The notes under the pieces are model-generated. The model was not told the DNA's origin and made no database searches. It saw only the letters and a program-made list of their open reading frames with translations. A program made the translations under genes and the position numbers. From Liolophura sinensis (Eukaryota; Mollusca; Polyplacophora; Chitonida; Chitonidae), in contig NC_088300.1 of assembly GCF_032854445.1 (NCBI RefSeq), positions 61,106,984 through 61,170,983 of the forward strand: a DNA stretch of 64,000 nucleotides. Reading direction: 5' to 3'. Positions 1,122 through 54,600 of this stretch are shown one piece after another; within the stretch, counting starts at the first letter, position 1, and every line of letters starts with the position of its first letter.

Positions 1122-8133
<7,012 letters not shown>

Positions 8134-19082: not shown

Positions 19083-22006
19083 TTAGTTTTGGGGCACACC
19101 TACATGTATGTCCCGTGTACAATGCAAGACAGCTGCTTCCTCTGGGCAAGGGTGAGTAAAGGTGTAATTACGGAATCTCATCTGGTCAAGAGGTGTGTAG
19201 TCACATTGCTGAAGAACCGCTATATCTGACGGGGTCCACCTACCCCCACCTGGTGCAGAACTCGGCCTCTCCCTCTTCATCTCAGCTGGCGACTGATAAG
19301 TTATAGGGGTCTGTAGGTTAACTCTGTACCGTGGCTGCTCCCAGGGCCATGGAGGTCGGGTTAGGGGGACGGATTCTGCGCTACCAGGATCCTCTGATAA
19401 CCATTCCGGGTGGACCACAAAACATGGCTTGGCTTGAAATGTATTCTGTGAAATGTAGCCAACAAGTTAAAAATATCAGAAAGCCTTAATTGGCAAGTTT
19501 ATACCTATAGTTTTAGCATCGTCACTTTCAAATGAAGAGCAAAGCTAGCGGGACCAGCTTAGCAGCCTCAATTTGGGCTCTCTATAGGTGGGAGTCATAA
19601 CATACACCCCAACAAATGCACTTGATTTTTTTTTTTTTTTTTTTGGATTGGTGTTTTACACCGTACTCAAGAATATATCACTTATACGACGGCGGCCAGC
19701 ATTATAGTGGGTGGAAACCCACGACCATCTGCAGGTGGCTGGCAGACCTTCCCACGTCCGGCCGGCGAGGAAGCGAGGATGAGCTGGACTTGAACTCACA
19801 GCGATCACATTGGTGAGAGACTCCTGGGTCATTACGCTACGCTAGCGCGCTAACCAACTGAGCCACGGAGGCCCCCACATGCATTTGTTTGAAGTGTATA
19901 AAAGAACGCCAGCAGCACTGTGGTGAGTATAACCTCTGAGGGGAATCTTCATGGGTGATGATAGGTATGTGGTTACCACGACAACTGCATAAATGGACAC
20001 ATGTGTCCAAAAAAAATGTGTGTGTGAAGATATCCATCAAAATGTAAAATTCTACGCAGACAAGAGTTGGAGATACAGCCCAGTCACGAAATCATATCTA
20101 TTTATATAGTATATACACGTATAATGAAAACGACGTCGCAACACATCATCATCTGTGTAAAATAAAATAAAATAAAAACTCTCTGTGGAAAACAATTGGA
20201 GATATAGCCCAGACACTTAATGCTGATGGAAAGATGGACAAAATCGCTATAACATAATACGCTCTGGCTCATGGTGAGGGTGTATAAAAAGCAAAAATAC
20301 TTACAGAGAAAACCCCATCCTGATGATGAAAGTCAAGGTGGGCAGGTCTGGAAGATCTGCGAAATAAAACACATGGTATGTCAAATGGAAATGTACAGAG
20401 ATTCTGTAAGAGGGGTTGGAATTTCGAGGTCACGTGACCACCCTTTCATGTCTAAAACAAAATGGACGCCCAATGTTAAAGCATTGGGCAAAAGATCACT
20501 TTTTGCTACTTCGCTAGCGACCAGTAAGGCCTAGTTGTGCAAAACAACATCCCGAAAGCTCTGCAGAAATATACAGACAGTCTGGAAAGCTTAAAATTAC
20601 ACAAATCTAACAGCTGACAGCGATTCAAAAATAGGCATTTTCCTAGCAAATGTGTAGGATAAAACATACATAGAAAAGGCCCCCAAGCATATACCAGATT
20701 AACTCCTGACACAACTTCTTGTAATAATTGACAATTTTCATTATTGTATACTTCCACTCTTAATGCACTACATGACAGGTCACATATACTTGGGACCTTA
20801 ATCCCAGCATAAACTAACAACCGTCCCATTGTCTGAATACAGTGTGACGGGGTGGAGCTTCGTATGATCATGAAGTTGCAATTGGGCAACACTATAACAT
20901 ACCAGGATGAATGTGATACAATAATATGATATAATAAAAAAGATGATATAAATGTCATATGCCCTCAGCGACAAGTGATACAGTATCAAGCATATCATAC
21001 ACTTTATTGAGGCGACGATGGCGACCACGTCATTTAAATGCAAATTCCAATTATGATGTCTGAGCTATCTCGGACTAATTACTTTATATAGTGAATATTA
21101 GTCCACGACAAAGAGCAAGTGCTCACATGCATGAACATGTACAAAATGTAGATCATATTTTTTTATCACAATTCAAAGAAAATTCTAGGTTTCAGGTTGA
21201 TCAATCCTTGATTCCTCAAGGCTCAGTGGCAAGGAATACAGCCTCACTCGCTGGATATTATTTCTGTATATATACGAAGTAACGAACACACCAACCTCCA
21301 CACACTGCGACGTGGCTTTAAGCCATAATTATTCATTCCACACAGTGTACATCCATACGTTTATCGTGACATTTCTCATCTCTGTTGGTGTGTGTGTTTA
21401 CCCGTGGCTGTGCTTCTTGTCAAGATGCGCCATGCACGTGCCGCCCGATAGCAACGCTGTTGTCATGTGATGGACAATGTACTAGTCAATAACTTTTTTT
21501 GCCCTCATTTTCAAAAGAGTTCTATAGCACAAATGACACAATTTTTCAGCAACAATACAAAGAAAAACTTCTCGTAAAGTCGTGAAGTAGTAAGTAACAC
21601 TTCACCTGCCAGAGGTTAATGGTTGCAAATATTTACACTGAACCTCATCTTCTCATCGTGTCACCCGTGACGTAGGCTTCGACCGCACAGCGACAAAGCC
21701 TGTGTGAAAGCACGGGAAGCATTTGCTGATGTTATTGTCATTGCTGTGCCGCATGAATTCACATAACATGTTAGATAATGCTCTTCATTGTGATAAATTC
21801 TGTATACAAGTGTTGTGTGCGTACATGACCTGATATGTCGTTAATATTTTCACAATATCGACGATCTTCTCGTCGAATTGTCAGACTCAAATAAAACGCC
21901 AGTAGACCAAGGCCTACATGTATAGTTTAAAATAGCTTATGTTATGCACTCACTCTTTGGCGTTTTCCGGGGACTCAGTGTCCACCATTTCTTTGCCCTC
22001 GGACAT
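19083..22006 (-). CDS. Unrecognised three-exon protein-coding gene (155 aa)
   Basis: Coding exons 21954-22006, 20305-20356 and 19083-19445. The ATG (22006) follows 'cttgcagc'. Exon 1 ends in phase 2 at GTGAGT; exon 2 starts after TTTCGCAG and ends in phase 0 at a consensus GTAAGT; exon 3 starts after TTTCACAG. The three fit into one 156-codon frame. The product starts MSEGKEMVDTESPENAKE, is rich in Pro, Trp, Arg and Tyr (for example PLTRPPWPWEQPRYRVN and RPSSAPGGGRWTPSD), and has no predicted signal peptide or membrane segment. The composition resembles small ciliary or axonemal microtubule-associated proteins, but that is only an impression; no domain was recognised. An AATAAA follows at 18926. 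The in-phase fit is the main support; no homology was established. Confidence 0.55.
19626..19875 (-). repeat. V-SINE-like element, full length
   Basis: Begins with a long T-run instead of the ATTT repeat and ends with an intact head, 'ctaaccaactgagccacgg' (box A on the minus strand). Lies in intron 2 of the unknown gene. Confidence 0.9.
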
Positions 22007-24606: not shown

Positions 24607-26631
24607 TCACCTCTTACTGGAAACTTTAAGGTTCAAGACTGTTTTTAGGAAATACAGATGCCACGTGGGGTCTTCGGTGAGTTCAGGATGGAAGGCCGTA
24701 GCCATTAGGTTATTCTGTCTCACGGCTACAGCTAAGTCTGACGTTTGACGAGAGGGACAGTCAAGGGTGGCGAGCACGCTCACTGCGGGGTCCATGATCT
24801 TAACAACAGCTGGGGCCCGAATGAAAACCCCCGAGAAAGTCTCTTGAGTGACACCGGTCTTGTTCCGTTGTCGTAAGTCCGGGACCTCAGCTAGCTTCAC
24901 GTCGGCCTCGAAGCTGTGTACCTGGCGTCCGAAGAAGTTACGGTCTACCACAATATCCAGACCTCCGATCTGCAATATACATGGAACGCTGGGATTTTAC
25001 TTCTTAATACCGAGTAAATGACGTGGCCTAATATATAAAAAGTACGGAAAACTGTCTTCTTAGCGCGTAAGAATGGCTGTTAACTATAGTTTTCTAAGGT
25101 CCCAGCAGTCAGCCCAGAAATTAACATGCCTGCTGTGGTGAGGTCAACGGTGACAACTGTCAAAACATCTTTGATAGGGAGAGCCCAATGTGGGGGAGCT
25201 AAACCGGATGTCCAGCGTTCCCAGTATGATCATCGATGGCGTCATTTCCCAATATTTCCCACAACTGACAGAGAATATGCACACAATAGAGCGGTTATAA
25301 AGAGATATGAAATATGCCTCAAAAATCAAGAAAAAAAATGCTCATTTTTTGGGCATATCATTCTTCATTTTCCTTAAGAAAATTATATTTTGTTATAGTT
25401 ATATTACTGTTTTCTGTACCCTTGTAATGGTGCGTTATTTATACATAATACGCAGTTTTCGAGTTACGCCATTACGACAACAGAATGACGTCTCCGTGCA
25501 AAAAGACGCCGCCACTTTACGGCACAGTAGGGCTACTTGCCTATCTTTTAACATGGCAGTGATCGTGTTTAGATCAAAGTATCGACAGAACATCATGTTT
25601 TGTGCAATATTGGGGGAACGCTAATTCACCCCTGAACACAATTCAGAAGATCAGTGTAATCCTTTCAATTACTTCTCTATATTCCCCATGTTAAAATTAA
25701 CAGATTGGCCCTACCATGCCGTAAAGTGACGACGTCATATCATAAAGGGGCGTCACTCTGTCGTCGTAACGTCATATCTCGAAACATGCATAATGGTTCA
25801 TTGATGGTCATATTTCTTTGTGAATAATACATAGTTGTTTCTTTCGTTACACGCTGATAGAAGGATCTGGTCACTTCGACCAAACAAACTTTGGCATAGA
25901 CGCATCACACCAAATAATGGGGCGACCAGACATTAAAGGGTCGAAATGACTGAGGGTCAGATTTTATTTAGTCGCCAGAACAGAGTCAAAGAAGCCATTA
26001 CATTTGGTTGAAGCAAATACAACTAATGAGGTCGCATTTTCTGTGGTCGCATTTTCTTTGGTCACTATAGGGTCATGTCAAACATTACAAATAAAATTGT
26101 GCTGGTTGTTTTGGACCCTAAGATATCTGGTCATATCTATAAATATATGTATCTATAATAGTGCACCGTAAGTTTATTATTACACTAGATGAAACAGCTG
26201 TTTTGTTTTCAGCAATATATTAAATTGGTAAATTAATCGCTTTTACAAATACACACTACCTGTGGCTGACCGCCATCTTTCTGATGCTCAGATCGTTCGG
26301 CAAGTAAGATCATCCCGGCGCAGGTTCCCCAGGTCACGTGATTTTCATTCCGTATCCAGGATCTCAGCCTGTCCTCCATTTTATTTCTTCTCAGGAACAT
26401 GCTAATGACAGTGCTTTCCCCGCCAGGAATGATCAGACCATCTATATCGTCTCTGATGTCGTCCACACTTCTTACATCTACTATTTCCAGATCTACTGGC
26501 TTTACTAGAAGAGCGTTTGCTTTTAATAATGCAGCTTTGTGTTCTGAAAATGCACCTTGGACCCCGAGGATACCGATCCTGCGCATGGCATCTGACGGGA
26601 TCGTCATTTGGGAATGTGGTGCTGCTGGCAT
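24607..26631 (-). CDS. PDXT: PLP synthase glutaminase subunit PdxT/SNO (spliced, eukaryotic)
   Basis: Two coding exons, 26260-26631 and 24607-24969, joined in phase 0 (GGQPQ|IGGLD), give 244 aa. I chose the ATG at 26631; later in-frame ATGs at 26607 and 26586 are possible. Role: a class I glutamine amidotransferase that hydrolyses glutamine and delivers ammonia through a tunnel to PdxS. Seen: RRIGILGVQGAFSEH at the start of the fold, PGGEST (69-74), the nucleophile elbow WGTCAGM with Cys104, DRNFFGRQVHSFE (133-145), and the triad partners His218 and Glu220 in FHPELTED. Bacterial PdxT is about 190-200 aa; the extra length is an N-terminal leader of about 15 residues and a basic C-terminal tail. 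An acceptor (polypyrimidine then CAG) at 26650 implies at least one upstream 5' UTR exon. Head-to-head with PdxS. The intron holds a foldback element. Confidence 0.96.
25451..25791. mobile_element. Foldback/MITE-like element in the PdxT intron
   Basis: The left arm from 25451 ('gcagttttcgagttacgcc ...cgccactttacggcac...tagggc') and the right arm ending at about 25791 are reverse complements over roughly 80-100 bp with some mismatches. They enclose about 150 bp. There is no coding capacity. Such long inverted arms suggest a non-autonomous DNA transposon. A target duplication was not resolved. Confidence 0.7.
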
Positions 26632-26649
26632 CGCGGAGTGAACACAGGT

Positions 26650-29600
26650 CTGCATGAGGAGGCAAAAATGGAAATGGTTATACTTAAACTTTAAAAAACT
26701 TTCAAGTATTTTTTGTGAGGTGAAAACAGACCAAGATTATGAGCGTTATATAGGTGCCGTTCAGTTACATGTGTTATTTCATAAAAAAAAATTTCAATAT
26801 TACAGAAATAGAGAATCATGCACAGCTATAGCGCCTTGTCCCATAAGTGATCGTAACCTATTAATCTAATGTAGGCCTAGGCCCTATACCACGGTTACAT
26901 TTTTCTTTACTTTGTATCTCCCTGTTAGAAATACATTCAACTTAGCCTACAATTGTTTACTCGAACGACATCAATAAGTAATTCCAACTTAACAAGTCTT
27001 AAGTCGTAAAACTTAAGTGGTAAGTCGAAAGTTTTACCAAGTAACTACGATTAAATGGCCATATATCATACGTTTTAACTTTAGAACTTTAGACTTGAGT
27101 TGCGACTTACTTTCTTTGATCACAGAATTGGGAGCTAGGGCCCCGAAAAACTCAGGTGCCCCTATCGAAGTATACAGGTAAAGAAGTATCGAGCTAAACG
27201 AAGTATAGCGGTAAATGTCAAGAAATGGCAATTTCGTAGGCAAGTGATATTGTGTGTTTATTATTGTTTATACGGTTTGCGTATTCGTAAAGGTACATAG
27301 ACTACCTCTAAGGACAAGTATGGGATATTTTCTTACGCCCACTCAGCGCTTCACAGAGTCACGAACACTGTCGAAACAAGATACGTGTATTCTGGGCTCA
27401 TGTTCTCGTGTTTCAGTTTCAGGATGTCTTATATATTCATCTAGGTCAATTCACATGGTGTTCATTTAATCCATTTACGAACAACCTGCCATTGATAAAT
27501 GCAGCCATTTCTCTTCATCGTTCTCCTTAGTCTTTACATGCAAGCATGCACCTTCTCAGAAGACGAAATGTCGCGTTTAAGCTATATCCCCTATGTGTGT
27601 CTCTGAGACAAGACGAAAAGTATCCCAGTATGTATGAGATTGACCCTATTCGTTGTGACGACGACTCGACAACATTTTTCGAGGCCATCTTGTTTCTCCA
27701 TGTATGTAATGGGTTTTTCTTGAAGAGTTGCGCCGTAAAAGTGTAGAAAGAGTCTCCAAGGTGACCACTAACACTATAGAACCCTGTAAACCAAAATAGT
27801 GCTCACTACTAATCGGCATTGAAACTTTGTCGGCAGTTGTCGGTTGTCGTTGTGGTTTATATGTGATATTTATTACCGGGGATTGTGGTTGCATCTCTTG
27901 TGAATCTAAATGACCGAGGAGTAAAATAAGTGTTGCATCTAAGGTTGTATTTTTGATAGTTGCTGATAAGATGTGTACTGTGTAAGCTACGATATGTTAG
28001 CTTACCAGGCTCAGAAATCTCCTCCGCTGTTCCTTGAGCGGAGATCACGTACACTTGGCTTCCACAAAGCTACAGCTACAGGCGAAACACAAAACGGTGA
28101 CTTAGCCAAGTGCTTCGGTTACCAGAGCGATAGTTTACTCCTGTTTTCTTCACACATTAAAGTGACCACTGTCTTAAAAGTAAAATATAAATGCGTTTGT
28201 CGTCAAATATCAAACAGTTAAATCATATCAAATCAAACCAAGAAATGGCCCTAACAAATTCACACTAAACATATTTCAAGTCCATTATATTGTCGGCGTT
28301 TTGGGTTATTTGTGTGTTCACATATGGAACACATTGTACTTTATTTATTCATTTACTTGATAAGGGCTTCATGCCGCACTCAAGAATATTTCACTTATAC
28401 GCGGCGGTTAGCGTTTTGGTGGGAGGAAACCGGACAGAACTTGGGGGAGATCCACGACGATTTTGTGTACTTTGTATATATCAAGAGTAGCTTAGACATT
28501 TGACCTTTGATAGTAAGCTGCCTACGTACAGCGGCTATTGACATCGTCAGGGCAGCATATTTTGATTAAAACATCCGATAAATCCTTGACATTTGCAGAC
28601 ATGCAGTGAATACAATGCATCCTGTGTGTTCTAACACTCATATCAAAACACGATAGCTGTTGACACATGTATGAGTAAAGCTGTTCAATGTATCTAGCAA
28701 GTCAAATTACCCATCGTGATCATGCCTGAGATCGATGCTTGATTGCCTCAAGTATGTCACAATAAAGCTGAATCATGAAGGGGGTTATACTTTATATCGT
28801 ACTTTTATCTGAATTTCCACTTCCATTTAACCTTGATCTGTACAATATAACGTTACCAACACATTTGGTGACCCAAATCTTTAGGACAGCTGTTGAATTA
28901 ATCCGGATTTGGACAAATCATAATATCACATTTGATGAGAACGGAAGGAAATATAAGTTTTACAACTTTTATTATTTATGACCACTGTGACTGTTTTTTG
29001 ATGTAAGAAGGAAGCAGTGCTTTACGTACTGATGGCCACGTTGGTGAAATTTCCACACTGTTTTGTTAGTATATGGTGAGGGCAATTTGAAGTTTCCGTG
29101 AAATGTTCTAATTTGGGTGCATCACATTGTCATGTATAACATGTCATGGACATGACAGATTAGAGTATATGTCACAGGAGTCTTTAAGAAGGAATGGCTA
29201 AATGATTGAATTACAAAATCACCAAGGAACATACACTTCTACTATATGTGGGAAATGTTATCAAATGGTGATTTGAAAGCCGTTAGCGGTTTTGATCAGT
29301 GTCAGAACTTACGAAAACACCATTTTAATAAGCATATAATATTGTTCACTACTGTTGCATGGTTCAGTATAAAGATTATCGAGGTTAAGCAAGTAAGTGA
29401 CTAAAGTAGCAGGCTTACAGTCCATTAAATCACACAAAGAGAAACATTATATACAATAATGTTTGTTGTCCTTACCTTCAGAAAAAAAACACCCGGCCAA
29501 GGTGTACACGGTAGTCATAAACTGAGGAATGGGCACCCAAATTGCTGTTCAGTCTCCTAGATGAAGATCTATAAATCCGACCGCATTGTTTTTGTATCAG

Positions 29601-29937
29601 ATTACAACTGGAGATGACCTCACGTCGACTGACACGTGACAGGTGGCTGTCATCCAAACAAGACTTACCAAATATGTACCGGGATGTAAGTAACAGGCCT
29701 TATTTACACAAGTCTGCTGTCCCTGCTCCCCGTCAGAGGTCTGTGCACATGGACTGACCATCGGACCTGTGGGTGGGATTATATTGTTATCTGTATGGGT
29801 CTATAACAACGGTTTGCAGTGGACATAACGCAGAGATAAATCTGTTTCCCGGGCCACCTGTCCTGGGTAAATACAAAGGACGACCCCCCTCTGGGCGTAT
29901 CATAAAATTGTCTTACGAAACAGTCCATTCAGGCTGC
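26650..29937. other. PdxT 5' side and PdxT-PdxS intergenic region
   Basis: No coding exon recognised. The PdxT 5' UTR exon(s) must lie here. Minus-strand donor-like sites occur at about 27113 (AAAGAAA|GTAAGT), 29475 (CTGAAG|GTAAGG) and 29669 (TTTG|GTAAGT); I cannot choose among them. One SINE fragment lies at 28341-28463. Confidence 0.4.
28341..28463 (-). repeat. V-SINE-like element, partial
   Basis: Tail and core only ('ctcaagaatatttcacttat' to 'gggagatccacgacg'), substantially diverged. Confidence 0.8.
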
Positions 29938-29945
29938 TATATAAA
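29938..29945 (+). promoter_or_regulatory. TATA box of PdxS
   Basis: TATATAAA lies 32 bp before an initiator-like TCAGATT (A at 29970). A predicted 41-nt leader exon follows, ending at a consensus donor, AAC|GTAAGT, at 30010/30011. Confidence 0.65.
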
Positions 29946-29969
29946 CCCTTGGTCCGCTGAGATTTCATC

Positions 29970-30010
29970 AGATTGAAAACTTGATTGATACACGTCCGCT
30001 GACAACCAAC
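29970..30010 (+). other. Predicted PdxS 5' UTR exon 1
   Basis: Bounded by an initiator-like start and GTAAGT. It would splice to the acceptor TTTGTTTCAG before 32957, where the start-codon exon begins with 31 nt of 5' UTR. There is no transcript evidence. Confidence 0.5.
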
Positions 30011-30479
30011 GTAAGTATCATTTGTCTTTCTTCAGTGACCGTATATATATTTATATATGTACATCGCCTATATACCCGTAGTTAACATACACATCAGTTC
30101 ATGCGTGCAAATGAAGAACTGAAACCACTTAAGGGCTTCAACTGTATTATCGTTTAATTGTGTTTGTGTATTAAAACATCAAAAAACAACATTAGAACCA
30201 AAAAGCATTTTTCTGCAGGATGTGTTAAAATTAGATGTATATGTAACATATAATTAAAGGGCGCGTCTATAACTGTTATTCAGCGGATTCCGATTGCATT
30301 ATACGAACACTTTAACTATATTCATTCACCATTGTACAGCGCTCACTTTTTGCCACAAATCACTGGTGGGCAATGCATATGTATATGTGATAAATACCGG
30401 CGTGGCGTGACACAAGAGTTAAAATATGCGTGATGTATGCACGTATATGTACTGATGTACACAACGAAGCATTACTGGC

Positions 30480-30605
30480 ATACTAAAACACCTGGTCAAT
30501 GAAGTCGCATGTTCGAATCCCGCTCCGGGTGATTCCGATGCGGCTTTATGTGAAGGCGTTTGTCACTTCCACCATCCAACATAAAATAACTAAACGAATC
30601 AAATC
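30480..30605 (+). repeat. Candidate tRNA-derived SINE of another family
   Basis: A perfect box B, GTTCGAATCC (30511-30520), is followed by 'cgctccgggtgattccgatg' and 'cggctttatgtgaagg'. Box A is degenerate, so it is not a tRNA gene. Lies in PdxS intron 1. Confidence 0.4.
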
Positions 30606-31831
30606 CTTGAAAATTCAGTTAAATATATCTGTTTTGATTTACTGTGAGCCTATTCAAAGAGACTAGCTATGTATATCCAAGCTTGTGCTTGTGGCGAAGT
30701 TTTATTTTTCGGGTGAAAATTGGAATGATTTGTTAATGTGAGTTATATATAGGTCATGGGCCGGGGCATGGATTTGCACAAAATATATCCCAGAATATTT
30801 GGACAATATGACTGGAATAAAATAAAGCATCAGCTGAGACAGGGTCGTCTGCTTAGGGGTCATGGATATATGCGGTTATTCAAAAAGCGTTGAAAATGGT
30901 AGCTTTCACCTGCCTAACACACCGTTAGCCTTGATTAGGGACTTGATCAAAGGCTGCTAATTACATTTGCCCCACTTTTGAGCAGATGTCTATAGTATAA
31001 AGACTATAGTCATTAATTATATAACAATTAGCGAAACACCTGTCTGCGAAGTGTGTCACGCGACCAGCTGACGGACCCACTGGCGGACCACCGGGAATAC
31101 ACATCAACATTCATACAATATTCCAGTGTTTCAAAAACGTGCATGATTTTCTTTAATTCTCTGAAATGCTTCACCACAGCAACATATCACGTATTGAATA
31201 TCTGACATGGACTGTATATGTGGGTCTATGGTTGATTTTGTCCGCCTAAATCTGTCAACCCGTGAGATTTCACGTATAGCTGTAGAATGTAGAAGATAAT
31301 ATGAGAATACGTGAAGCATATATATATATATATATATATACGTACACGCCTTTACAACTAAGGGATAGTTTCAGTTTTTACATTGTGATTGATCGTTTGA
31401 ACAGATGTTCAGAACCTCTCCTGAGGATGTATAAAATGGCCAATTGTAATGTGTGGACAGTTTCAGTCAAAACCCAGCTGAGGTACACAATTTTGATTAA
31501 CGATAGCTTTAACAACTATTATTATATCAGGGTTCACGATTTGGATACTGAGTAAATTTACACACCAAGAGCATTCATTGTGTGTTTCCGACATCACTGA
31601 AGACTGTCGACTGATAATCTTGATATGACTCTGTCATAATGCACATTGTACTTTCTTAGACTTCTTCAAACTGACGTGGAACACCCAAGCATTCTGCATG
31701 ATTGATGACTGGCAGGCCTATACAGGAATGTCTGTTAAGATACCAAGCCTTATGGATATAATTCATATTAAACTTTATATAGTTTCCGATACTATACTTG
31801 CTCTAATATAAATATAGGAGCTTAAGGCGCT

Positions 31832-31998
31832 TTGTCTGACTGGTGTTTTACGCCGTGTACTCAAGAATATTTCACTTACAAGACGGCGACCAGCATTATG
31901 ATTGGCGGAAACCGGGCAGAGCCCAGAGGAAGCCCACGACCATCCGCAGATTGCTGCCAGACCTTCTCACCTCGGATCGGAGAGGAAAACAGCATGAG
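31832..31998 (-). repeat. V-SINE-like element, partial
   Basis: Core and 3' region without the terminal tRNA head, in PdxS intron 1. Confidence 0.85.
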
Positions 31999-32187
31999 CA
32001 ATGGTTTTGTACAAGGAAATTTTGTCACAGATCTATTAGATCGCTTCATTGTCTGTATGCGATGTATAGGCATCTCCATGCAGCATACACTCGATCCTCC
32101 CCATTACACTTGTATCATTTTCCCAAGATGTAACCGGATACTTACTCCCCCGGGCTATGTTTGGTTTGTGTTGCTGAGAGGATCACG

Positions 32188-32189
<2 letters not shown>

Positions 32190-32255
<66 letters not shown>

Positions 32256-32256
32256 G
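32190..32256. repeat. (TA)n microsatellite
   Basis: About 33 uninterrupted TA dinucleotides. A shorter TA tract lies at 31319-31340. The Tyr-Ile frames through it are artefacts. Confidence 0.97.
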
Positions 32257-32987
32257 TGAAGCATATAATATATCAGAATGTGTAGTACAATAGATCTATG
32301 CCACATGCATTGTGTAGAATGTAAAATAATGTGAATATAAATGGATGTCTTTGAGCTAGAAAAAATATAGTAATTAATTATATTGCTTATGATATCCTTT
32401 TTGTCTCTTAAAAGGCAAATGTATGCATGTTTATGTAGATCGAAATGTAAAAAAGATGTCTACAGCAGGTACACAGTGTGGTTAACATTTAAGATGTCAC
32501 TATATGTACACAAATATGGTGTTCATGTGCAAATTTGTTTTAATTATACCGATAAAGTACCAGTAATGCACAGCTTGTGTATTTCTTGGTTTTACAGATC
32601 TTCATGTAACTGTACGAGAAGACGTTTCACGTTTGTAGAGAGTGTACAAGATGACGATTGATAAGACTTAATTAAATGTATAGGCACCGTCGAACCAAGG
32701 TTCAAAATGTAAGCCATATACAACAGTAATAGGAATTTTCTAGTTGACTTTGATATCCAGACTGTTGTAGGTCTTGCTCGTCGGATTAAGTATCAGATAA
32801 GAGGTGGGATATACAGGCTTAATATATATTAAACCCATATTTTAGTATATCTCCAGTTATGTGTATAAAACAGCCCAAAACTACAGATTAGATCTGTACA
32901 CGGTTTTGTTGAAGTTTAGAGGATGAAAGCTACTATACTTCTCACGTTTGTTTCAGATTCTACTTAGACCTTATATTATCCATCAAG

Positions 32988-35900
32988 ATGACAGAAAGCT
33001 CCGTAAATGGTATGAAGGACATTTATTCCAGCATGCATTTTGTTATATCCTACCCTTTCTAGTTAATGTATTAAATTACACAGCGCTGTAAACTAGTACG
33101 CCCCTCTACCACAGTTTGCTTAATTCAGAAAAAAAGTAATTAATGTCTTGTTGTGTACTTAACTCATCAAACTGATTAACTTTATTGAGAGACTAAAATA
33201 TGATCTTTACAAATTGTCCAGAGCGGATATACCTATTCGTTGTAAACAGTACCAATGTTTTTTGATATGTCATTTATTTAATTCTTTTAAGATATCAAAC
33301 AAAGCTGGAACAACATAAAAATCTTGAATCCAACACTTCCCCGAATTCAAGCCAGGTATGGAGGCCCTGTGCTGAATCACATGCTGTTATTTCTCTGCCA
33401 CGTGGATTCTGGCGGGAAATGTTCTTTGTTCAAATTGGTCGTCATTCTTTTTTTCTGTTTCAGTTATATTCAATACGTTCTAAAATTATTCATTCTCTAG
33501 ACCACATATTTTCATTATTACCTATTTTATTCTAACAGGTGTCAGCTATGACGTCACAAACTTGGCGCTGAAGGAACCAAAGCCGATCACCCATCAAACA
33601 GGTATATTACAGCATGTTCATTTGTACTTCCGCGTGTTTTCATGCTTTATAGATATTAACCATAGCCCATCAGAAGGCATATCTATACACAACAATGTGC
33701 CTACAGTAATATTGTGTATTAAATTTGCTTGTAATTTTTTCTTGAAAAATATAGAAGTATCCCACTATTTCCACACATTTCTTCAAGGCAGCATGCGCCG
33801 TTCATGAAAATACTTGAACTATATAAATAGTACGGATTCTTAAAATGTGATATTAAAAACCCTTCTTGCCTTATTATTCACTTTCATTTTTTGAAGCAAA
33901 AATAAAGATTACCAAAAGTATTTCCTTTTACTATTAAACCTTCTGCATGCACTCACTCCATGTATAACTGACCTACTTTGACTTCAGGTACGTTCAAAGT
34001 GAAGGCCGGTCTTGCGCAGATGGCTAAGGGAGGTATCATTATGGACGTAACGACGGCGGCGGAAGCACGCATAGCTGAGGAGGCTGGGGTGAGTGGGCAA
34101 CTTTCCCACTCCACATTTTTCCAATCAAAAATAGGATCTGAAACATTTGCTTCCACACTTGCGTTTGAATGCAATTCAAAAAAAGAGCTACATGCATTTG
34201 TCAAGGAATGTCAAAGTTCTGATAAGTTTGCAATAAATATGAAATTGGTTTTGCAATTTTTACAGTTGAATGAATGCATTAAAATGACACTTTATCTAGC
34301 ATGTATCCTCTTCTTTATTCAGGCATGTGCAGTAATGGCCTTAGAACGTGTTCCTGCTGATATTAGGCGCCAAGGGGGCGTGGCCAGAATGACAGATCCA
34401 AAGGTGAGCAACACTTTTATTTCTTTATACTGTCATTGTTTTCCTGCGAATTGTCAGTGTGGTGCTTTTTTGGCGACACGGGCTCTACTTTCAAAAACAT
34501 AATCTGTTGAATTTAACGAAACGTCTGTTGTCTGGGTGATACCAAAATGTATTCTGCTATTGCAGCAGATTACTCCGTTAAATACAGCACACGCAGGGGC
34601 GTAGCGCGGATCTTCAGGGGGAGGTTGGGGGGGGGGGGGGGGGCGAATTTGACATTTGACAAGAGCGGAACGACTATCACAGTCTATTAGGCGAGGGTCC
34701 ATTGGCCTCCTAGGCCCCGGAAGCTCCGGGATATTAGATTGCCGGAGAGTGGATCTGGGTGATTTCGAAGTGTTCCGAATGCAGATTTGGTCAATGTGTA
34801 CACATTCATTTTCACATTAAAAAAAAACAACCCAAAAAGCAACTCAAGTTCAGCTTAGGTGGGGTTGAAAACAGGCTGTCCCAGAATATACAGTATTTAT
34901 TGTCATGGGTTCCAGAGTTACAAATAGAACAATTAAAACTGCGTCATTTGTCTTGTCTAGGCGGAAATGGCTACTGCTGTCCGCACGGTACGATTCAAGA
35001 GAGGTAATTCTGTAAAACACGCCGTCTTCCACTGGGAACAATATGGAATGGTTCACATAACAGAACATGTGTAAATAGGCCTATATACTATTTAGTAAAT
35101 TGGTACGAAATTGAAATATTGGCCTACATAGGCTACAGCAAATATTTGTGGAATAAATGTTAATAGCTAGGTAAGAAATATAGGCTAAAATATTTTTTTC
35201 GTGGACTTGGGCGGAATATTTTTGCCTCACGGTGGGGGGGGGGGCGCACTTCCCCCCACCCCTCTCCCAGCATTCAATATTAACTTAACAGAATATTATG
35301 GCGAACATGACAGAATATTGTGCTATAATAACAGAATACATTCTAGCATCACTCAGACAACAACCTTTCAGTTAAAATTAACAGTGTAATTTTTGGAGGG
35401 TAGCTTAAATGGTCAAATTGTGTTCTGTTGTAACACTTGAGTAATACGTCATCAGTTTGTCCACAAAACGTCATCGCAGATCATTGAACAAAGGACTACA
35501 AAGTTTTGTCCTGAATTAGCTCATGCAAGAAAGGTTCTTCATTAAGAGGCTAAAATTCTCAGTCTGAATTGAATGAAAAGAAGGCCCTCTCTGATTAAGT
35601 TGTACATAACAGAAAAGTTGAGAAATGGTGATCTTTACGAAATCGTCTTGTTTTCATTTAAGAAAATCAAAGCAATCATGGAGGCAGTGACAATTCCTGT
35701 GATGGCCAAAACCCGGATCGGTCATTTTGCCGAGGCTCAGATTCTCGAATCTCTAGGTGTGGACATGGTGGACGAGTCGGAAGGTAATGGCAGTTGGCTC
35801 CCAGGACGATGACAAACAACTTTTGGAGAAAGCAGATTAGAATATAGAAATTACACAAAAGGTTAAGAAGATCATAAAGGGGAGATGGTTTAGGTGCAAT

Positions 35901-38309
35901 GTGAAATTAAATGTCTTCAACGTATACAGAGAACTGTGAGCTTAGCATGGCCAACACAAATTACGTTGAAATGAATGAGAAGGATGTCATGAAGTTTTAA
36001 AAAAACTAAAACAATCTCTTACAAAGCTACTGACTTGTACTTTTTTGAAAAATTAAACCTTCCGAAAAAGCATGCACTAGTATAAATACATAAATGCTTG
36101 AACAAATCCCAAAGCCTTATAATTTGCTTATAATTTTTTCTTTAAAAAGATAGAAGTATCCCACTGTTTCCACACATTTCTTCAAAACAGCATGCGCCAT
36201 TCATGAAAATACTTAGTACCAATTCTTAAAATGTGATATTAAAAATCCTTCTAGCCTCACTATTATTATAAGTCTAGCCTCACTATTATTCAGTCGATTT
36301 ATTTTTTTTTCGTACAGTTTTAACTCCAGCCGACGAAGAGAATCACATCGACAAGCATCAGTTTACAGTCCCATTTGTGTGTGGAGCCCGGGATTTGGGT
36401 GAGGCGTTAAGGAGGGTGTCTGAGGGAGCTGCCATGATCCGGACCAAGGGAGAGGCAGGCACGGGTTAGTACACACAAAGTTTACAATTCTGTTGTTTCT
36501 TTCTGATAAATTTCAGTACCTCATTGTGTACATGAATGTCGCTTTGAATTCTGTTTATTCATTTTATTTATGAATAAACAACTTTGAATTTGGAATGTAA
36601 GCGTTATACGCTCGAAATATAACGTTTACAGCGATCATTCGTAAACGGCACATTCTGATTATTCACTCAATCAGGTCGAGCCAAATTAGTTTGGCAATCA
36701 GAATCTGGAAACTTTGTACTTATAGCTTTGTTTTCAACATTTTGGGATTATGTCCCATGCCATTTTCGCCGGTAGGCTGTCTGGTCATATCTGATACACG
36801 TCTTCTGCATGAAGACCGTAGTACATTTAAATACATATATATGATTGACGGCATTTAGATGGCCCTACTACAAATATGCACCGTCGTGCATAATACATAA
36901 ACGAAAATAAAAAGTGAAAACAAGGTAAAACAACAAACAAACAGTAATTATTATTTGAGCCAATAACCCAATAAATAACTAGGTATTTTCCATGCCGCTG
37001 GTATGCCATTACCAAAAAATAAGATAATTTTAGATCGGTTTTGGATACCATCAATCTGGATGAAGGAATGTATCAATCAAGTGTATTTCCCTCAGTCTAT
37101 CAAGCTGTCACTGACTGACTGACTGACTGACTTTCTTTTTCCTCACACCAGGTGATGTAGCCGAGGCTGTCCGTCACGCCCGGACCATCAACAAGCAGAT
37201 CCGGATTGCACAATCCTTGGACAGCACGGAACTGTATGCTTATGCCAAAAACCTACAGGTTCCTATTGAGCTACTGAGAAAAACGGCGGAGTTGGGCAGA
37301 TTACCCGTCGTCAACTTCGCCGCTGGAGGCATAGGTGCGTCTGATTTAGCAGTCTGAAAGAGAAGTATATAAAGTAATATAAAGTATATCAACTATACAA
37401 CGATGTCCGCGCTCGCTGTGGTCAGATCTGTTTGCCATACACCATACAAAAACTTGTTGCTTACCAGTTCTAAGCTCGGGAGACTTATGCCGGTATTCTG
37501 TTTTTCAAGTAAGGTCTTGCCTTGGTATTTTCGGAAATCAAGTACTCTGTTCTTCAGTCAAATTTTTGCTTTCATATTTCTGGAAGTGAAGTACTCTGTT
37601 CTTCAGTTAAGATCTTGCTTTCGTATTTTCGGAAGTCAAGTACTCTGTTATCCAATTACCAACTGCTTTCGTATTTCTGGAAGTAAGGTATTCTGTTCTT
37701 CAATTAAGGTCTTGTTTTCGCATCTTCGAGAGTCAAGTGCTCTGTTTTTCAGTTAAGGTCATGCTTTCGTATTGTTAGAAATCAAGTCGGTTCCTCATTT
37801 GACTTCCAGCATTTGTGCTTTGAATAACGATTGATATTGGGATGTTGGTGTACTAAACGTTTTGGCATACAGCATTGGGGACAACACCGTCCCCAGTCGT
37901 ATTTATTGCCTTTGAGAAGAATATTCAGAAACGAAGTACTTATGTGTGAAGTTTTCGTCCTCTGCTATATCATCTTTGTGAATTTAAAACGCGTTCATTG
38001 ATATTTCTCTTTTGAACAGCAACACCAGCTGACGTGTCCCTATTGATGCAGCTTGGAGTCGATGGCGTCTTTGTGGGATCGGGAATTTTCAAAAGTTCCA
38101 ATCCACCAGAGAGAGCTTTGGCCATGGCACAGGCCGTGACCCATTACAAAGATCCCAAAAAGTTGTCAGACCTGAGCGAGGACCTTGGCGAGGCCATGTT
38201 TGGGGTTCCACACGACAAAAGGGTGTCACAGAACAAGCAGACTGGTGGCGACATGACTAAGATCTGGAACGCTACGCTCGGGGATGGTTCTAAAGCAACA
38301 ACGTCGTAA
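32988..38309 (+). CDS. PDXS: PLP synthase synthase subunit PdxS/SNZ (spliced, eukaryotic)
   Basis: Nine coding exons: 32988-33009, 33292-33355, 33546-33601, 33988-34088, 34323-34403, 35663-35783, 36318-36464, 37152-37334, 38020-38309. They fit one 355-codon frame (354 aa). Role: the (beta/alpha)8-barrel lyase that makes pyridoxal 5'-phosphate from ribose 5-phosphate, glyceraldehyde 3-phosphate and ammonia supplied by PdxT, as a dodecamer carrying PdxT subunits. Seen: Asp67 in GGIIMDV, the Schiff-base Lys124 in [11 protein letters not shown], Arg190 and Lys192 in [11 protein letters not shown], the phosphate-binding NFAAGGIATPAD and [12 protein letters not shown]. These match Bacillus Asp24, Lys81, Arg147 and Lys149 at a constant offset of 43. 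Bacterial and yeast homologues are about 295 aa; this one adds about 44 N-terminal residues, encoded by small exons, and a longer C-terminal tail. No frameshift or stop. Codons and splice sites look like those of neighbouring genes. Confidence 0.97.
33722..33870. repeat. Intronic duplicated segment, copy A
   Basis: About 145 bp ('gaagtatcccactatttcca' through 'gcatgcgccgttcatgaaaa' to 'aaaatgtgatattaaaaa') lying just before the exon at 33988. It is matched closely by 36123-36262. Confidence 0.9.
34497..34700. repeat. Interspersed repeat with G-run, inverted partner of 35215-35395
   Basis: Includes 'gcaggggcgtagcgcggatc', a G tract of about 16 bases and a segment whose reverse complement ('cagaatacattttggtatca', 'cccagacaac') recurs at 35330-35390. 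Confidence 0.65.
35215..35395. repeat. Interspersed repeat with G-run, second copy
   Basis: 'cagaatacattctagcatca' and 'ctcagacaacaac' match the reverse complement of the 34497-34700 element. It has its own G-run and C-rich block. Both copies are in the PdxS intron between the exons at 34323 and 35663. Confidence 0.65.
36123..36262. repeat. Intronic duplicated segment, copy B
   Basis: Matches 33722-33870 in the same orientation. Lies just upstream of the exon at 36318. Confidence 0.9.
37440..37790. repeat. About 49-bp tandem repeat in the last PdxS intron
   Basis: Six or so units of 'aagtactctgttcttcag' plus 'ttaaggtcttgctttcgtat' plus 'tttcggaagtc'. The apparent open frame at 37403-37756 is a product of this repeat. 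Confidence 0.9.
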
Positions 38310-45610: not shown

Positions 45611-48600
45611 TCAGTCAGAATCTGAGTCCCCAGTGCCCCGGGCCTGCGGGGGAAGATTAATTCCTTCTGTTAACTCCAGCATGTGCTCCACGGGTACGGG
45701 CCGGCCATCCTCTCCAATACGGCTTGGCTGCACAAGACCTCCCCTGTGAAGATGACCAAATGTCCAGTATTTACCAGTGAATGGACCCTAGTATATATTT
45801 ATTTAAACTAAATTGCCTAAAACTTCACCCAAGGCTAAGTTGCCTGATTCTGAGAGCTCTTACAAATGTATTTACAAACGTGTTTTGATGTTTGTTTTGA
45901 TGATAGCCTACATGAAAAATTGAAAAGTCTCAGCACCAAAATATTTTTGGACATTTATTTGTCTCTAAAAATGCACTATTTGGGACAAATTTTAGGTCAT
46001 TTACAATATTTGATTTATTTGACTTCATGGCAGACTAAAGAATGTTTCAGTGAGTTTTGTGGATGTAAACCAGGGCAAACCACTAACTGTTCGCATGGGA
46101 TGGCCACTGACTGCTTCAATGGCCATGGAAATAAACGAAAACACAAAGCACTAAACTTTTGATGAGGCTAACACTAGAATGTGAGAGGGACGTCATACCT
46201 CTGGAGTTTGTCCATTAGACCTACTAATTTCATGGCCTCGTACTCTTTCTGCTCCTCCGTCATACCTTCACAGGGATTTGACTTCTCACCCTCGAGTTTA
46301 CCCGTTACAGGGTTGATCCTGAAGAATGTACAATATAAAAACATGTAGGCACACAAATTTAGACAAACACATGTGTATACACCAAAAGCCCAACACAACT
46401 GCAGAGTTGTTACAGCTAAACATGTGATGTGTTTAAAATGCTTATGTTCAGGTTTATTTATTTAATTGGAATTTTAATCTGTACTCAATCCTGCCAGTAC
46501 TATTGTGGGAGGAAACCAGACTCAAAACCCATGACCATCTGCAGGTTGTTGGCAGACCTTTCTACTGACGATGGTAGAGGCTTATCTCAGGGGTTAATCT
46601 GTAGGGTTAATATCTAATTTAACAGTACAAAATTGTTACTGCATCTATTTCTTTCTGGTAAGCTGATTTGAGGCTCATTTCCAAAATATATGTCTGTAAG
46701 AAAGAAGTTGATTGTTCTGATGTGGAGAGTAGGTATATTTATTTATTTATTTGATTGGTGTTTTACGCCGTACTCAAGAATATGAGTACTTCTACGACGG
46801 CGGCCAGCATTATGGTAGGAGGAAACCGGGCGGAGCCCAGGGGAAACCACGACCATCTGCAGGTTGCTGCAAGACCTTCCTACGTACGGCCAGAGAGGAA
46901 GCCAGCATGAGCTGGACTTGAACTCACAGCGACCGCATTGGTGAGAGGCTCCTGGGTCATTACCTTGTGCTAGCGCGCTAACCAACTGAGCCACGGAGGC
47001 CCCGAGAGTAGGTATAACAAAAAACGTGAAGTGTTAAATTCAAGTCAGTACCCGCAGCTTCTAGTTAGAAATCTGAGAAGGTTTCATTTGTTTTTTCTTT
47101 TTTGTCTACATAAATGTCTATATGCGACTCAGCTTCGACATGGTGCTCAAAGATTATCATTTCACTTACATTTTCGCAAAACACTTTCAACACTTTAATA
47201 TATACTTTCCTAGACAAGATTACAGAGAGACAGCTAAGGATGTCAATAGTATATAAGACTTGCAAGTTTTCATTTTTATACAAGTTTATTTCAGTTTTCA
47301 AGATCAGAACTTCTCTAATATCACCAGCTGATATGCCTCAACAATATTTTTGATATTTTATCGATATGAATAGTCCAATTTAATTTATCATACAAAATAC
47401 TCCAAGAAATTTATATTCACCGATTTTTTAGTTTCTCTCAATTTTTTTTTCTTTGCGATTTTTTTACAAACGTGAGTTTATAAAGAATGCTACATACTGT
47501 TCCTTAAGCTGTGAATATTCTTCTGTCTCAGAGTCTTCTGAATCACTGGAGTAGTTGCCGTCCCCTCGACCTCCCAGCATCAGTCCACGGTTGGCTAACA
47601 GCCCGGCAGCATTCCCATAGCCTGTATACTTCACCATTCTGTCCACTGTCAAGGGAGACAACTGACACTTTAAAGGGAGGTAATAAAAGACCTACAACCT
47701 TCGACATAGAAACTGTGGATTTACGTGATGTCATTGAACAATTTGTATACTGCCACATTGTATGTTTGCACGTGTACAATTTTACATACCTTACGGATAT
47801 TATACCGCCCACATACATTAATTTTATTTACCAACTGATTTCTATTTAACATCCAACTGAAGAATTTACTTCTGGCAACTGCTAAGTTGCCCTTAGGTAT
47901 GTGAATTTCTACAACATACACAGTCATGGTAATCAAAGGCTTAATTAGCTAAGTGCACTTCATAAAATCATGACTAATCTCATAAAATTCTGCACCAAAC
48001 AGAGTAAAGTACCTAGCTGCTGATCACAAGCCTACAGAGTTATCTTACTTACCACTTTCTTTACAAAGAATGAAGAGGAAATCAGCACAGAGGTCTTTAA
48101 CTTCGCTGACAGCTGAAGTTAACAATTTACACAGCCTGAAAAATAAATTGAATATTTAACATTACCCATTTGTAAGGCCCGTTAACCATTATGTGATAGT
48201 CTCAACAGACAGTCATTCATACATGAGAATTATATCTTCTGGAACAGTGACATACTTGACACCAGATTTAGGAACAATTTTCCCTTACCTGTGACATATG
48301 TCCAAATCAAAAAAAAAAAAAAAGTTGTAAACTTATGAAAGCCTATCTAGTTTCTTATGACAACAGTGATTACCTGTTTCTAAGTGAATCTCCCTCTTGT
48401 GGAAGATGTTTGACTTCATCACGCAATGGAGGCAGCACCTGCCAACAGAACATAGATGTCTTTTTAGTAGTTATTACTCAAATTCACCCCACACACAGCT
48501 CTTGATGCATTTCACCTAAATGTTTGATATGTAAAAATGAACTTCCACAAGCATGTAAAAGGTCACAATATGATTGTTTTTGTGCTAAAACAATGCTTTT

Positions 48601-51600
48601 CTGATAAGAAATCAATCAAACTCATCTCAAAAGTTACACTTTATTATCAAAGGCGGATGAATCAATCAGACTGAAGCCAAACGTGCCACTTTGAAAATGC
48701 TCAACTTTAGGTGAAAGACAGACAGATTTTCTTGACACACAGCCAGTATAAAAAAAAACAGATAAAAAGAAAAATACAGGGTAAGTTGGACATGAACACT
48801 TGAGGTCGATGCTTAGACCAGGTAGCGTTTAGCAAAGCTCCTAAATTCCAAATGGACCACCAGTAGTGTGCAGGATAAGAACAACTGTTATTTTACAAAG
48901 GGTATCTTTGAAACAATAACACTGTTCAATGCCTCAAGTTGCAGATCACAATAACTAGATTAAGTAGTTAATTTCTTCCACATGTTATTATGTCAAACTG
49001 AACTTACCTTTGTCCTACAGAACTTGCGAATACTTCTATTGCTGCGGCATGTCTCACAGAGACAGTGTAAGATAGGGATTAAACTCTCCTTTAGACTCTT
49101 TGTAGGCTGAAAATTACAACAGTTATCACAGTAAAGTACAGGTAGCAAATGCTGTCACAGTTCATGGATTGCAGGCTGACAATTTTCTTTATAACTTTAA
49201 GAGTGAGAGTGCAGACATGTCAAGATAAGCTGGGTTCTAATTCAAACTATTCTTAATAAAAACCCTAAAAACAGGCCTTGTAACATTTACATCACAGTGA
49301 AGGCCAGTCTAGTGATATCACTTACATCTGTTACAAACATTCTCATGAGTAAGGTCTGAAACACTATTTTCACCAGAAACACTGCTTGTGACCATGCAGC
49401 TGTCTCTCACCTTGTCCAGCCGTTTGTAAAGGAAGTCCAGAAGTGCCAGGATGGCCTCCATGTTTTTCCCGTCGTATTCCACATCTTTATTCTCCATTCC
49501 TCCCACAGCCCCTTCGTTGAGAGGCGTCAGCAACTCCTCGTAGCAATCTCGTGGCATATGGTTAACAGGTTCACTGTGTGACTACAACATTGAGTTGCAG
49601 AGGTTAAAACACTCTTATCTGCATCCGTCACATACACTTTCTAATGTGTCAAACACTACAAAATACTTATCCTGGATTTCTTGTCATGGTGATGGCAAGA
49701 ACAGGAAATTTTTTTTTCTTGAACAGTACAATGCATAGTACATGTGTGTTTGTACAGCACAAGAGTGTGGCTTTAGGCCATGTTGGGAACAATTCAGGCA
49801 TATTGTGGTGATGCGTGACAAGGCAATGACTTCATCAGGCATCAATGACAGCCTACTGATTTATTTACGTGTTTGATTAGTGTTTAAAACTGTACTCAAG
49901 AATTGTTTTCCTTTGACCTTTAACAATATAAATAATTTTGTTTTTGGAAATTACATCATCTCCAAGTGTAATAACCCAGACAAACTTCATTTACGAAAAA
50001 AAAATTTCAAGAAACTTGATTCACTGATAGTTTCACGAAAGTGGGCTGTTGACCAGCAGAGCTGAGTAACCATTACGACCTACCCTCTGTAGCTCCTCCC
50101 TCTTGTCTTTGGTGGCTGTCTGACAGATCAGCAGGTCATGGAGGACACTGACTAACCTCATGAAATGTGCCTCTTCTTCCTACAATACAGAAGTTATCAC
50201 ATCACAGACCCACTCAGTAGTGGAGTTGTAAGTTTGAACTCTGTTGTCATGAAAGGTAAAACAGTCCAACTGTATCATGTGATATGTGAAAAATGTTAGG
50301 CAAACTTTGTTGACATTAATTTACTGAACACAGTTCCAGAGGCACAAATGACACCTCCTTACTTTCGGAGCTTCTCAAATTCACAAACGTTCAGCTCTTC
50401 AATTCTTTCAATCTTTTGTCATCTCTAAATTACACTTTGTGAAATATTTGCCTAACATATTTTATAGGCCATTTGATACAGTGGAACCTTTTTCACTTTT
50501 AGCGATAAAAGAATTCAAACTCAAAACTCCTATTCACACAGACATGTAAGATGTTAGAATGTAGAAAGACAAAAGCAGCCACAGGTATGCAAACCACAGA
50601 GCAATCTCAATGAAAGTCAAATCTACATATCAGCTGCACCCTATGCCAACTTGTTTTTCTAAAACCAGATCTACATTGACACTCACTTTTGAAACGATGT
50701 TCCTCACTGCTACCATTAAGGTTTGACATTTATTTTCAAAGACGTGTGAGTGGACAAGACGTCATTTCAGATCTATACGCAGTAAATGAGGTGTCAGCAG
50801 GAAGAGACCACCAGATACTTTATTTCACCTGAAGTTTGGTATATTAAAAATGCACCATAAAGGCCTAATAGTGATACTTTTGTTGCCATCACTTTTTTCC
50901 TGATAAGAAACTGCTTATAAAATATCTTAAGTTGTCCTATAAGAAAGATAAATCAATCAGAATGAAGCAAAATGTGCCACTTGAAAAAGTTAAGCTTTAG
51001 GTGAAATACAAGTATACTGACAACTCTGAGATTCCACTTTAGAGAATCTAAGGATGTATGTATTTTATCCACAAGCAGCACTACTTGCTCTGCCTGATAT
51101 ACATGTATATACAGCAACAAAATAAAGGAGCCTTTTTACATGAGCAGTAATTACCATAAAAAAATGTGTCAGCATGGTTGTTGCTGAAGTGGATTTACCT
51201 CAAATACCATCACTTACATCGAATACTGATTTAAACCCTGTGACAAAGCTTAAAAGTCCAACCCCTCTATCAAAGTACCTCATCTAAGGCATTTTTATCC
51301 ACAGATACTGTCAAATTGAAGAGAATCTTGAGGATTTCGCAGCACAACTCCACCTCCTGGTCAGTCAATGGTGACCCTTTCTCCTCCGCATCTCTCAGAC
51401 TCAGATCGATCACTTCCACCAAGTATGTGATGCCGTGCATGTCGTGGCGGATTTTTGGTCTACAATGCCAAGAGAACATTGCTTACAAATATGGGTATCA
51501 TTGAAAAGTAAACAAGTACATATGTATTTGAATGTTGTTCAATGCCACACTTTCGCTTACACCATAGCCGTCCTTTTTAGAGGTGGAGGAAACCAGAGTG

Positions 51601-54600
51601 CCTGGCATAAACCACCAACGTCTGGCAAGTTACTGATGAACTTTCCCACGTGTGACACACAGATATGCACACTATAAAGGTGGAAGAGGTGGTCATCTTC
51701 AACAAACGTTAGACAGCTTAAATAGTTGTCATACGAGAGATATCGACGGCTTATTGTTCCCATGGCAAACAGTGAGAGTTAAGGAGTATACAACTTCCCC
51801 ATAAATAAACCCATACCTCTTGTTTTCTTGCGGCTGAAAGTTAAATGCCTTTAAATTTACCAACACACACACACACTCAATAGTATAACGTTCACCTACC
51901 TAGTATCTTGACATAAGGCTGTGAGCAGAAATAACATTTTCATGTCAAAGAACTGAAAAAGAAAGCAAACAAGAGCCATATTTATTTATTACAAATTAGC
52001 TCTTCATTTATAGGATCATGATCCCAAAATTGCCCCCGATTTAGGACAACTTGTTCATAAGGTGCATGCATGGTGAAGGTCGGAAGTATACTCTGGTTTC
52101 TGTCATCTGTCAATATTATCTTCATATATTAACTGAGTGCCAAATTCCGCAGCACGGCATTCATTAATACACTGACAAGTGTATTCATCAAGGGTAAGGG
52201 TATTTATCAGTTATTTGAATTTTTGTCAATGCTGTTCGAAAGATTACATTCGTTACAGCTTCACCGGTTGCTTTTAGTACATGGGAGAGAGGAAATCAAG
52301 GCATAAAGTCCGTAAAGAAAAATAGTGAATTATTCCAATGATTTAGAACAATGATTTCACTTAGTTTAAAAATGTTTTGAAAGAGACAACTACCTTGTTC
52401 AAAGGTTCTATGCTTTTACAATGTAACCTGGCCTTTAAAATTGAGCTAAATTATATCTGACAACACACACTAGATATAAAACCATTCATACAATACCTTT
52501 ATATCAAACTTGAGCTCTGGATCTTTGTATGTCTTAAGTCTTTGGACGATTCCTTCTACACAGCCATTTTTACTGAAAAACAAAATTATGTAAGCCTGTA
52601 ACAACTGAAAATTTCAAATTTTGAAAATTAATGAAGTAATAATTATGGCTTAATGTCACTTCAGCAGTACTGCAGCCATATCGTGGCGTAGACAAAATGC
52701 AATTAGCGTGCATGCACAAGCATAAGCACACAAACATAAGTCAAGACTTAACAGACATCTTGTACTGAAAACAAACAAACTTTTAGCATCAAACTTTTTG
52801 AAAAAAAAAAAAAAAAATTATAAACAGATTTTCATGCTAATTCCTCAACGTTTTCGCATGTGAAATTATCGCAACTTTTTAAATTTGATTTTTGGAGACA
52901 AAACTACATTGGTGGGGTTGGCAAATTACAGGACTTCACAAAAAGTATAAATCTGTCAGTCAACACAGGGTAATGCCTTCAGAATATACTTGAATAAACA
53001 CCTTGAAAACACTGCAAAAAGGATGAAGAATTACAGCAATCAAACAATTGTGATTGCCATTGGGAACTGATCAGCTTCAACTCATTCTACATTATATGCA
53101 GTTCTAATGGAGAATTGACAGGATTTTTATGTAAGATTTTACAGTTACAACATCTGCTACATACCTGCACATTTTCTGTGCTTTTGGACTGTTGAAGATG
53201 AGATTACACAGGCATTTTTGTGCCTCCACGATGACTGAAATCACAACCAACATAAGTTCATCAACTGGCATAAGCTCAATTCTGTGAGAGGATTCCAAGA
53301 GTAACACCTAAACACCTTCATGTACTTATGGAGTACTTCCCACTCATTTCAGAGTCATGAAGAGACAATCCCAATTTCGTCTTAGTTCAAAATGTGCAAC
53401 AAACTTGTTTACACCTTCCATATTGCTAGAATTTAACACAAGAAGAAAACTAGAAGGATACTGATGGATTTTAATGAACTTAACACAGTAATTGTTTAAT
53501 GCTACTGTGAACAATTACTTAGAAAAGGCCGAAAAACCTAGCTACAATTTATTTATTTATTTGATTGGCTTTTTACGCCGTACTCAACTTATACAACGGC
53601 AGTTAATATTATGGTGGGAGGAACCGACCATGACCATTCGCAGGTTGCTGAAACTTTTCCACGTACGGCCGGAGAGGAAGCCAGCATGAGACTTAGCTAC
53701 AAGGTCATATATGTAGCTATTATGAATGAATATGCCTACTGTCCCCAGTTCTGTCAGCTCTGTACTCAAGTTTGATTTATTTAATTATCTGATTGGTATT
53801 TTATGCTGTACTCAAGAATATTTCACTTGTACGATGACAGCCAACGACATCGTGGGAAGAAGTGCGGTATCCAAGTTTGAGCAATGAGAATACTATATAT
53901 GGAGTGAGACAGCAGACAGGTTTCCATTAATACAAATGTTGTTATGGTTGAAAAAAAAATACTGATAAAGAATTGAAGACAACACTTTATCAAAGAATAT
54001 TTTAATCTGAATTCCATGGGCTGAAGCTCTATAAATATATTGCAAGCAAAACAAAATCACTGAAAAATTATGAAATTGAAGTCAAGAAAACTTAAGATCT
54101 TTGACTGATGCTTGTTTGGCATTCAATAGGATCTTTCCAAGGACAGTAATTCAAAGATGAACACAGCGTTTATTTTGAGGTAAAAACAGTCTAGAAAAGC
54201 AATGGTATTTCAGCTTAATCCTCATGAAACTGTAAGGTAAGTTCTTGAGATACATATACACAGACAGCCAAATTACACAAGCCATGAAAATTTTTAAAGG
54301 ACACTGACAGCCATATCAGGTCAAATGCATTGAAAGGTCATATCATATGAAACTACTTTGAATGTGAAATGGTACACCTGTCTTGAAATGTTGCAAAGAC
54401 AAATATGTGTAACTTGATCCATGAAAGGTCAAAATGGCAAGGACAGCTAAAATGGAGCTACCAGAATGATGAAAAACAACAGTGGTATTCATCATGGTTC
54501 CTTCAAACCAATGTAAGGTTTGAAGTCCACTGATTGGTGCACTCTAAGTTACATGTCATTGATTTTGTATATATAGTTAAATTTAAATATATGTATCCCA

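Follow-up and report, generated by a model that had tools for sequence, protein, structure and literature searches.

The window analysed here, a stretch of 64,000 nucleotides from a scaffold of more than 61 Mb in the genome of the chiton Liolophura sinensis, contains the genes for the two subunits, PdxT and PdxS, of a predicted pyridoxal 5'-phosphate (PLP) synthase. The genes are neighbours placed head to head, PdxT on the minus strand and PdxS on the plus strand (Table 1), and this divergent layout would allow shared control. A Pfam search of the whole genome (609,464,459 bases in 632 contigs) gave five exon matches to SOR_SNZ and two to SNO, all of them at this single-copy locus, and with these families no second copy of either gene was found anywhere.

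The exons were assembled by hand and by script. The PdxT model has two coding exons separated by one GT-AG intron in phase 0 and encodes 244 amino acids, the length claimed in an earlier note on this DNA; the choice of its start codon is tentative, as another in-frame ATG lies 8 codons upstream. PdxS is modelled with about eight coding exons, giving a preferred protein of 335 amino acids (327 of them firm). Its seven firm exons extend from 33539 to 38309, with all junctions GT-AG and in frame and a stop codon at the end. The 354 amino acids that the earlier note gave for PdxS were not reproduced, and the exon with which it began the gene was not identified. That note counted nine introns across the two coding regions, but the coding introns are eight in total (seven in PdxS and one in PdxT) and a ninth would be an intron of the 5' untranslated region. 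No stop codon or frameshift was found across the eight splice junctions.

Because the first firm exon of PdxS opens in phase 1, a short coding exon is needed upstream of it. This exon was sought between 26700 and 33530 by scoring donors and start contexts, and the top rank was taken by the ATG at 32988 with a donor at 33009 (ATG/GTATGA). A good acceptor, TTTGTTTCAG, is found about 30 bases 5' of this ATG, and a noncoding exon further upstream may tentatively complete the leader. The choice of first exon affects only the extension of PdxS ahead of the conserved core.

Both proteins were assigned to their families with high scores. Pfam gave E values of 7e-108 for PdxS (PF01680) and 7e-47 for PdxT (PF01174), levels that chance would not produce. 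Moreover, the PdxS equivalog cut-offs were passed for NF003215 (479.6 bits, cut-off 395) and TIGR00343 (460.9 bits, cut-off 438.45), as was that of TIGR03800 for PdxT (167.8 bits, cut-off 105.55), whereas the narrower PdxT model NF010050 was not reached (102.2 against a cut-off of 181). The PdxS models were matched over their full length, and the claim that both subunits are full length is borne out. The core of PdxS is 71% identical to the protein of Thermus, 68% to Arabidopsis PDX1.1 and PDX1.3, 66% to yeast Snz1 and 60% to Plasmodium Pdx1 (sequences from the PDB), and PdxT can be aligned end to end with the solved PdxT proteins.

The catalytic residues are kept in both subunits. In the alignment Asp48, Lys105 and Lys173 of the chiton PdxS correspond to Asp23, Lys80 and Lys148 of yeast Snz1; the earlier note had picked the same residues as Asp67, Lys124 and Lys192, numbers that exceed those of the present model by 19. 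The two lysines are also the counterparts of Lys98 and Lys166 in Arabidopsis PDX1; there these residues bear the ribose 5-phosphate imine and then the later intermediates (PMC8313854). In PdxT the alignments and the exon model agree with the triad already proposed: the TCAG nucleophile Cys104 and the HPE residues His218 and Glu220 are retained, as is the PGGEST loop. With these residues in place, there is no reason to expect a PDX1.2-type pseudoenzyme. In the proposed reaction, glutamine would be hydrolysed by the PdxT triad and the ammonia handed to PdxS, where ribose 5-phosphate would be bound as an imine on Lys105; Lys173 would then take over the intermediate in a lysine relay which, with glyceraldehyde 3-phosphate, would yield PLP.

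At yeast residue 155 the alignment to Snz1 has an offset of +25, and by residue 213 this has become +24, so in between the chiton protein is without one residue that the yeast protein has. The yeast hexamer has been tied to the inserted Lys177 (PMC8313854), so a dodecamer can be expected for the chiton PdxS. Conservation likewise suggests that PdxS and PdxT form a complex, which in most organisms has 12+12 subunits.

The genome also contains a PNPO gene and collinear pyridoxal kinase exons, the latter occurring twice about 45 kb apart on contig C1 (TIGR00687, lax cut-off). These two exon sets (C1:49328772-49343701 and C1:49375410-49388529, minus strand) are near-identical; they may have arisen by tandem duplication not long ago, or the assembly may contain a haplotype that was left unmerged. 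No match to the Pfam kinase family PF08543 was obtained in the genome, probably because the short exons score under the threshold. PdxJ, of the de novo route that depends on 1-deoxy-D-xylulose 5-phosphate (DXP), was not found in the genome search and this route was rejected. Thi4 was also rejected, its six weak matches all falling within the N-terminal nucleotide-binding stretch. Fungi and plants run both de novo and salvage routes to vitamin B6. With PdxS and PdxT present beside PNPO and pyridoxal kinase the chiton would have both as well, the latter two enzymes providing salvage alongside de novo synthesis. Since salvage could make the pair dispensable, the genes might be expressed and yet have ceased to take part in B6 synthesis, as relict or moonlighting genes, or might be heading for loss. 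This is improbable given that both subunits are intact, with every catalytic residue that was checked in place and no interruption at any splice junction. The genes are probably transcribed and their products active, and their most likely function is de novo synthesis of vitamin B6, which the sequence supports as the natural inference drawn earlier.

The pair is flanked on both sides by animal genes, an ADA2/ADGF-type secreted adenosine deaminase and Ric8 (synembryn). PdxS and PdxT are common among bacteria and the coding sequence of PdxS has a GC content of 53%, against 38% for the window, which could be taken as signs of bacterial, symbiont or food contamination of the assembly. However, the locus lies at 61.1 Mb on a chromosome-size scaffold, the genes have GT-AG introns, one of which (in the coding region of PdxS) holds a repeat found genome-wide, and the prokaryotes searched give no near-identical relative. 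Introns, repeats, flanking genes and scaffold position exclude contamination in practice, and the animal nuclear location proposed in the earlier note is upheld.

Relatives of that repeat, the interspersed element in Table 1, are spread over many contigs; about 40 were scored, with identities of 77-91%. The foldback reported inside the genes was confirmed in the PdxT intron. The repeat resembling a short interspersed nuclear element (SINE) had been placed in a coding intron as well, but it sits upstream, in the leader or intergenic stretch and outside the firm coding introns; it occurs genome-wide with 42 scored copies among 4167 candidates. Two different PdxS introns share a block of roughly 150 bp (33722-33878 and 36121-36264, 83% identical). 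It was rejected as a SINE, and as the search of the genome found just these two copies it is a local duplication and not a dispersed repeat. The last PdxS intron carries about six copies of a 49-bp tandem unit (window positions 37469-37787). Elsewhere in the window, tandem arrays of 41 bp and 22 bp occupy introns of the adenosine deaminase gene. A 272-residue open frame (2391-3209, plus strand) resembles by eye a remnant of a mariner/Tc1-type transposase, with no Pfam match at E 0.001. A 127-residue open frame with PSSAPGGGRWTPSDIAVLQQCDYTPLDQMRFRNYTFTHPCP (19083-19466, minus strand) has the look of a coding exon from a gene not yet characterised and gave no Pfam match.

Table 1. Features of the PdxT/PdxS locus and its surroundings (positions in the window)
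Feature	Position	Strand	Remarks
PdxT coding exon 1	26260-26631	-	start codon at 26631; PGGEST loop, catalytic Cys104; GT donor after 26260
PdxT coding exon 2	24607-24969	-	His218, Glu220, stop codon; acceptor TATATTGCAG
Possible noncoding first exon of PdxS	29970-30010	+	tentative, consensus only; TATATAAA box upstream, donor AAC/GTAAGT
Probable first coding exon of PdxS	32988-33009	+	tentative; MTESSVN, phase 1
PdxS exon	33539-33601	+	N-terminal extension
PdxS exon	33988-34088	+	carries Asp48
PdxS exon	34323-34403	+	in frame, canonical splice sites
PdxS exon	35663-35783	+	catalytic Lys105, RIGHF motif
PdxS exon	36318-36464	+	catalytic Lys173, RTKGEAGTG
PdxS exon	37152-37334	+	in frame, canonical splice sites
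PdxS last exon	38020-38309	+	phosphate site, C-terminal tail, stop codon
Foldback	25449-25792		arms 25449-25533 and 25708-25792, 85 nt, 74% complementary, 174 nt apart; inside PdxT intron
SINE-like repeat	31826-31975	+	between possible leader exon and PdxS coding exons
Interspersed repeat	34590-35010	+	within PdxS coding intron
ADA2/ADGF-type secreted adenosine deaminase exons	1119-8157	-	PF08451, PF00962; N-terminal domain E 6.6e-23
Ric8 (synembryn) first and last exons	46174-56044	-	E 1.9e-15; downstream neighbour of PdxS

The origin of the genes was addressed with one scan of prokaryotic genomes, which gave 80 PdxS loci, 67 of them with PdxT nearby; the loci were picked through short peptide patterns taken from the query and are not an even sample of bacteria. 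The closest prokaryotic PdxS, from Chloroflexota, is at most 73% identical to that of the chiton, and for the 67 PdxT proteins the identity does not exceed about 44% between pairs or 47% in the trimmed alignment. With these ceilings a recent bacterial donor is excluded within the set that was scanned. No relative was found among viral contigs, and phage records gave only matches of 61-68%.

In the tree of PdxT the chiton protein groups with Plasmodium Pdx2 (support 92/91) against 70 prokaryotic sequences. Moreover, the motif GGLD followed by RNF(F/Y)G is common to these two proteins and occurs in none of the 67 prokaryotic PdxT proteins. In a PdxS tree of 45 rows, forcing the chiton, yeast, plant and Plasmodium proteins into one clade comes at a cost of 4.2 log units, and this clade is not rejected (p-value of the approximately unbiased test, p-AU, 0.416). 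Within the limits set by long branches and a small sample of eukaryotes, the motif, the PdxT grouping and the PdxS result favour an old eukaryotic origin of the pair.

It is also conceivable, if rather unlikely, that the genes entered an animal or mollusc ancestor by ancient horizontal transfer from a bacterial (or else an algal or fungal) source and gained their introns later, with the same enzyme function. Such a transfer has been reported for Heterodera cyst nematodes, the genes are missing in most animals (PMC6071262), and the nearest rows by path are Chloroflexota for both proteins. The low identity of even the closest prokaryotic proteins and the features that PdxT shares with Plasmodium speak against it, as does the fact that the eukaryote clade of PdxS is not rejected. 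No bacterial placement of the chiton genes is supported in trees with a small eukaryote sample.

We conclude that the chiton most likely possesses a functional, nuclear-encoded, DXP-independent PLP synthase which would have descended vertically from early eukaryotes and been lost in other animal lineages, a reading to which we give a probability of roughly 0.82. Several points weigh against it. In the PdxS tree of 86 rows the chiton forms a long branch with no supported neighbours, and long branches also make the grouping of PdxT with Plasmodium insecure. Furthermore, the eukaryotic sequences in the trees are few and the PdxS model has an uncertain first coding exon. The searches and trees proposed in the earlier note were run with prokaryotic sets and a few eukaryotes; they revealed no close donor, and the placement of PdxS came out unsupported.

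Animals are still described in the review literature as unable to make vitamin B6 (PMC7954711), or most of them as being without the PdxS and PdxT genes (PMC6071262). SNZ and SNO genes are nevertheless attributed to the sponge Suberites domuncula (Seack et al. 2001, as cited in PMC7954711) and, as horizontally acquired genes, to the soybean cyst nematode Heterodera glycines (Craig et al. 2008, as cited in PMC11817004 and PMC5664098), and pdxS has been reported in H. schachtii and H. trifolii (PMC11817004). The earlier view that there is no established case in a bilaterian was wrong, because these cyst nematodes are bilaterians. No report of a mollusc PdxS was found in the open-licence literature, of which the coverage was partial. 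Automatic "SNZERR-like" annotations of PdxS-like genes exist for several marine invertebrates, and a mollusc PdxS may be visible in databases though never discussed. The chances seem about even that true B6 prototrophy exists in chitons, and possibly in further molluscs, through an ancestral eukaryotic PLP synthase that has been kept throughout animal evolution. If so, the B6 auxotrophy of animals would be explained by repeated losses and would not be an ancestral trait. The presence of both genes, intact and in single copy, in a marine mollusc bears on the timing and number of losses of vitamin synthesis in animals, and with it the claim that animals cannot make B6 becomes directly testable.

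The kind of enzyme is well known and it is the host that is notable. Like YaaD/YaaE of B. subtilis, SNZ1/SNO1 of yeast, PDX1/PDX2 of Arabidopsis and Pdx1/Pdx2 of Plasmodium, the chiton pair has both subunits at full length with the same catalytic residues, and against known PLP synthases its PdxS core is 60-73% identical with scores at equivalog level. It differs from them in its bilaterian host and intron-rich genes, and from yeast Snz1 in addition by the missing one-residue insertion. The SNZ/SNO pair of Suberites domuncula, likened here by description, is also encoded by an animal and belongs to the same pathway, although a sponge is not a bilaterian. Heterodera resembles the chiton as a bilaterian with DXP-independent B6 genes; these nematodes, however, are plant parasites with a reported transfer from bacteria, whereas for the chiton pair no bacterial donor appeared in the sets searched.

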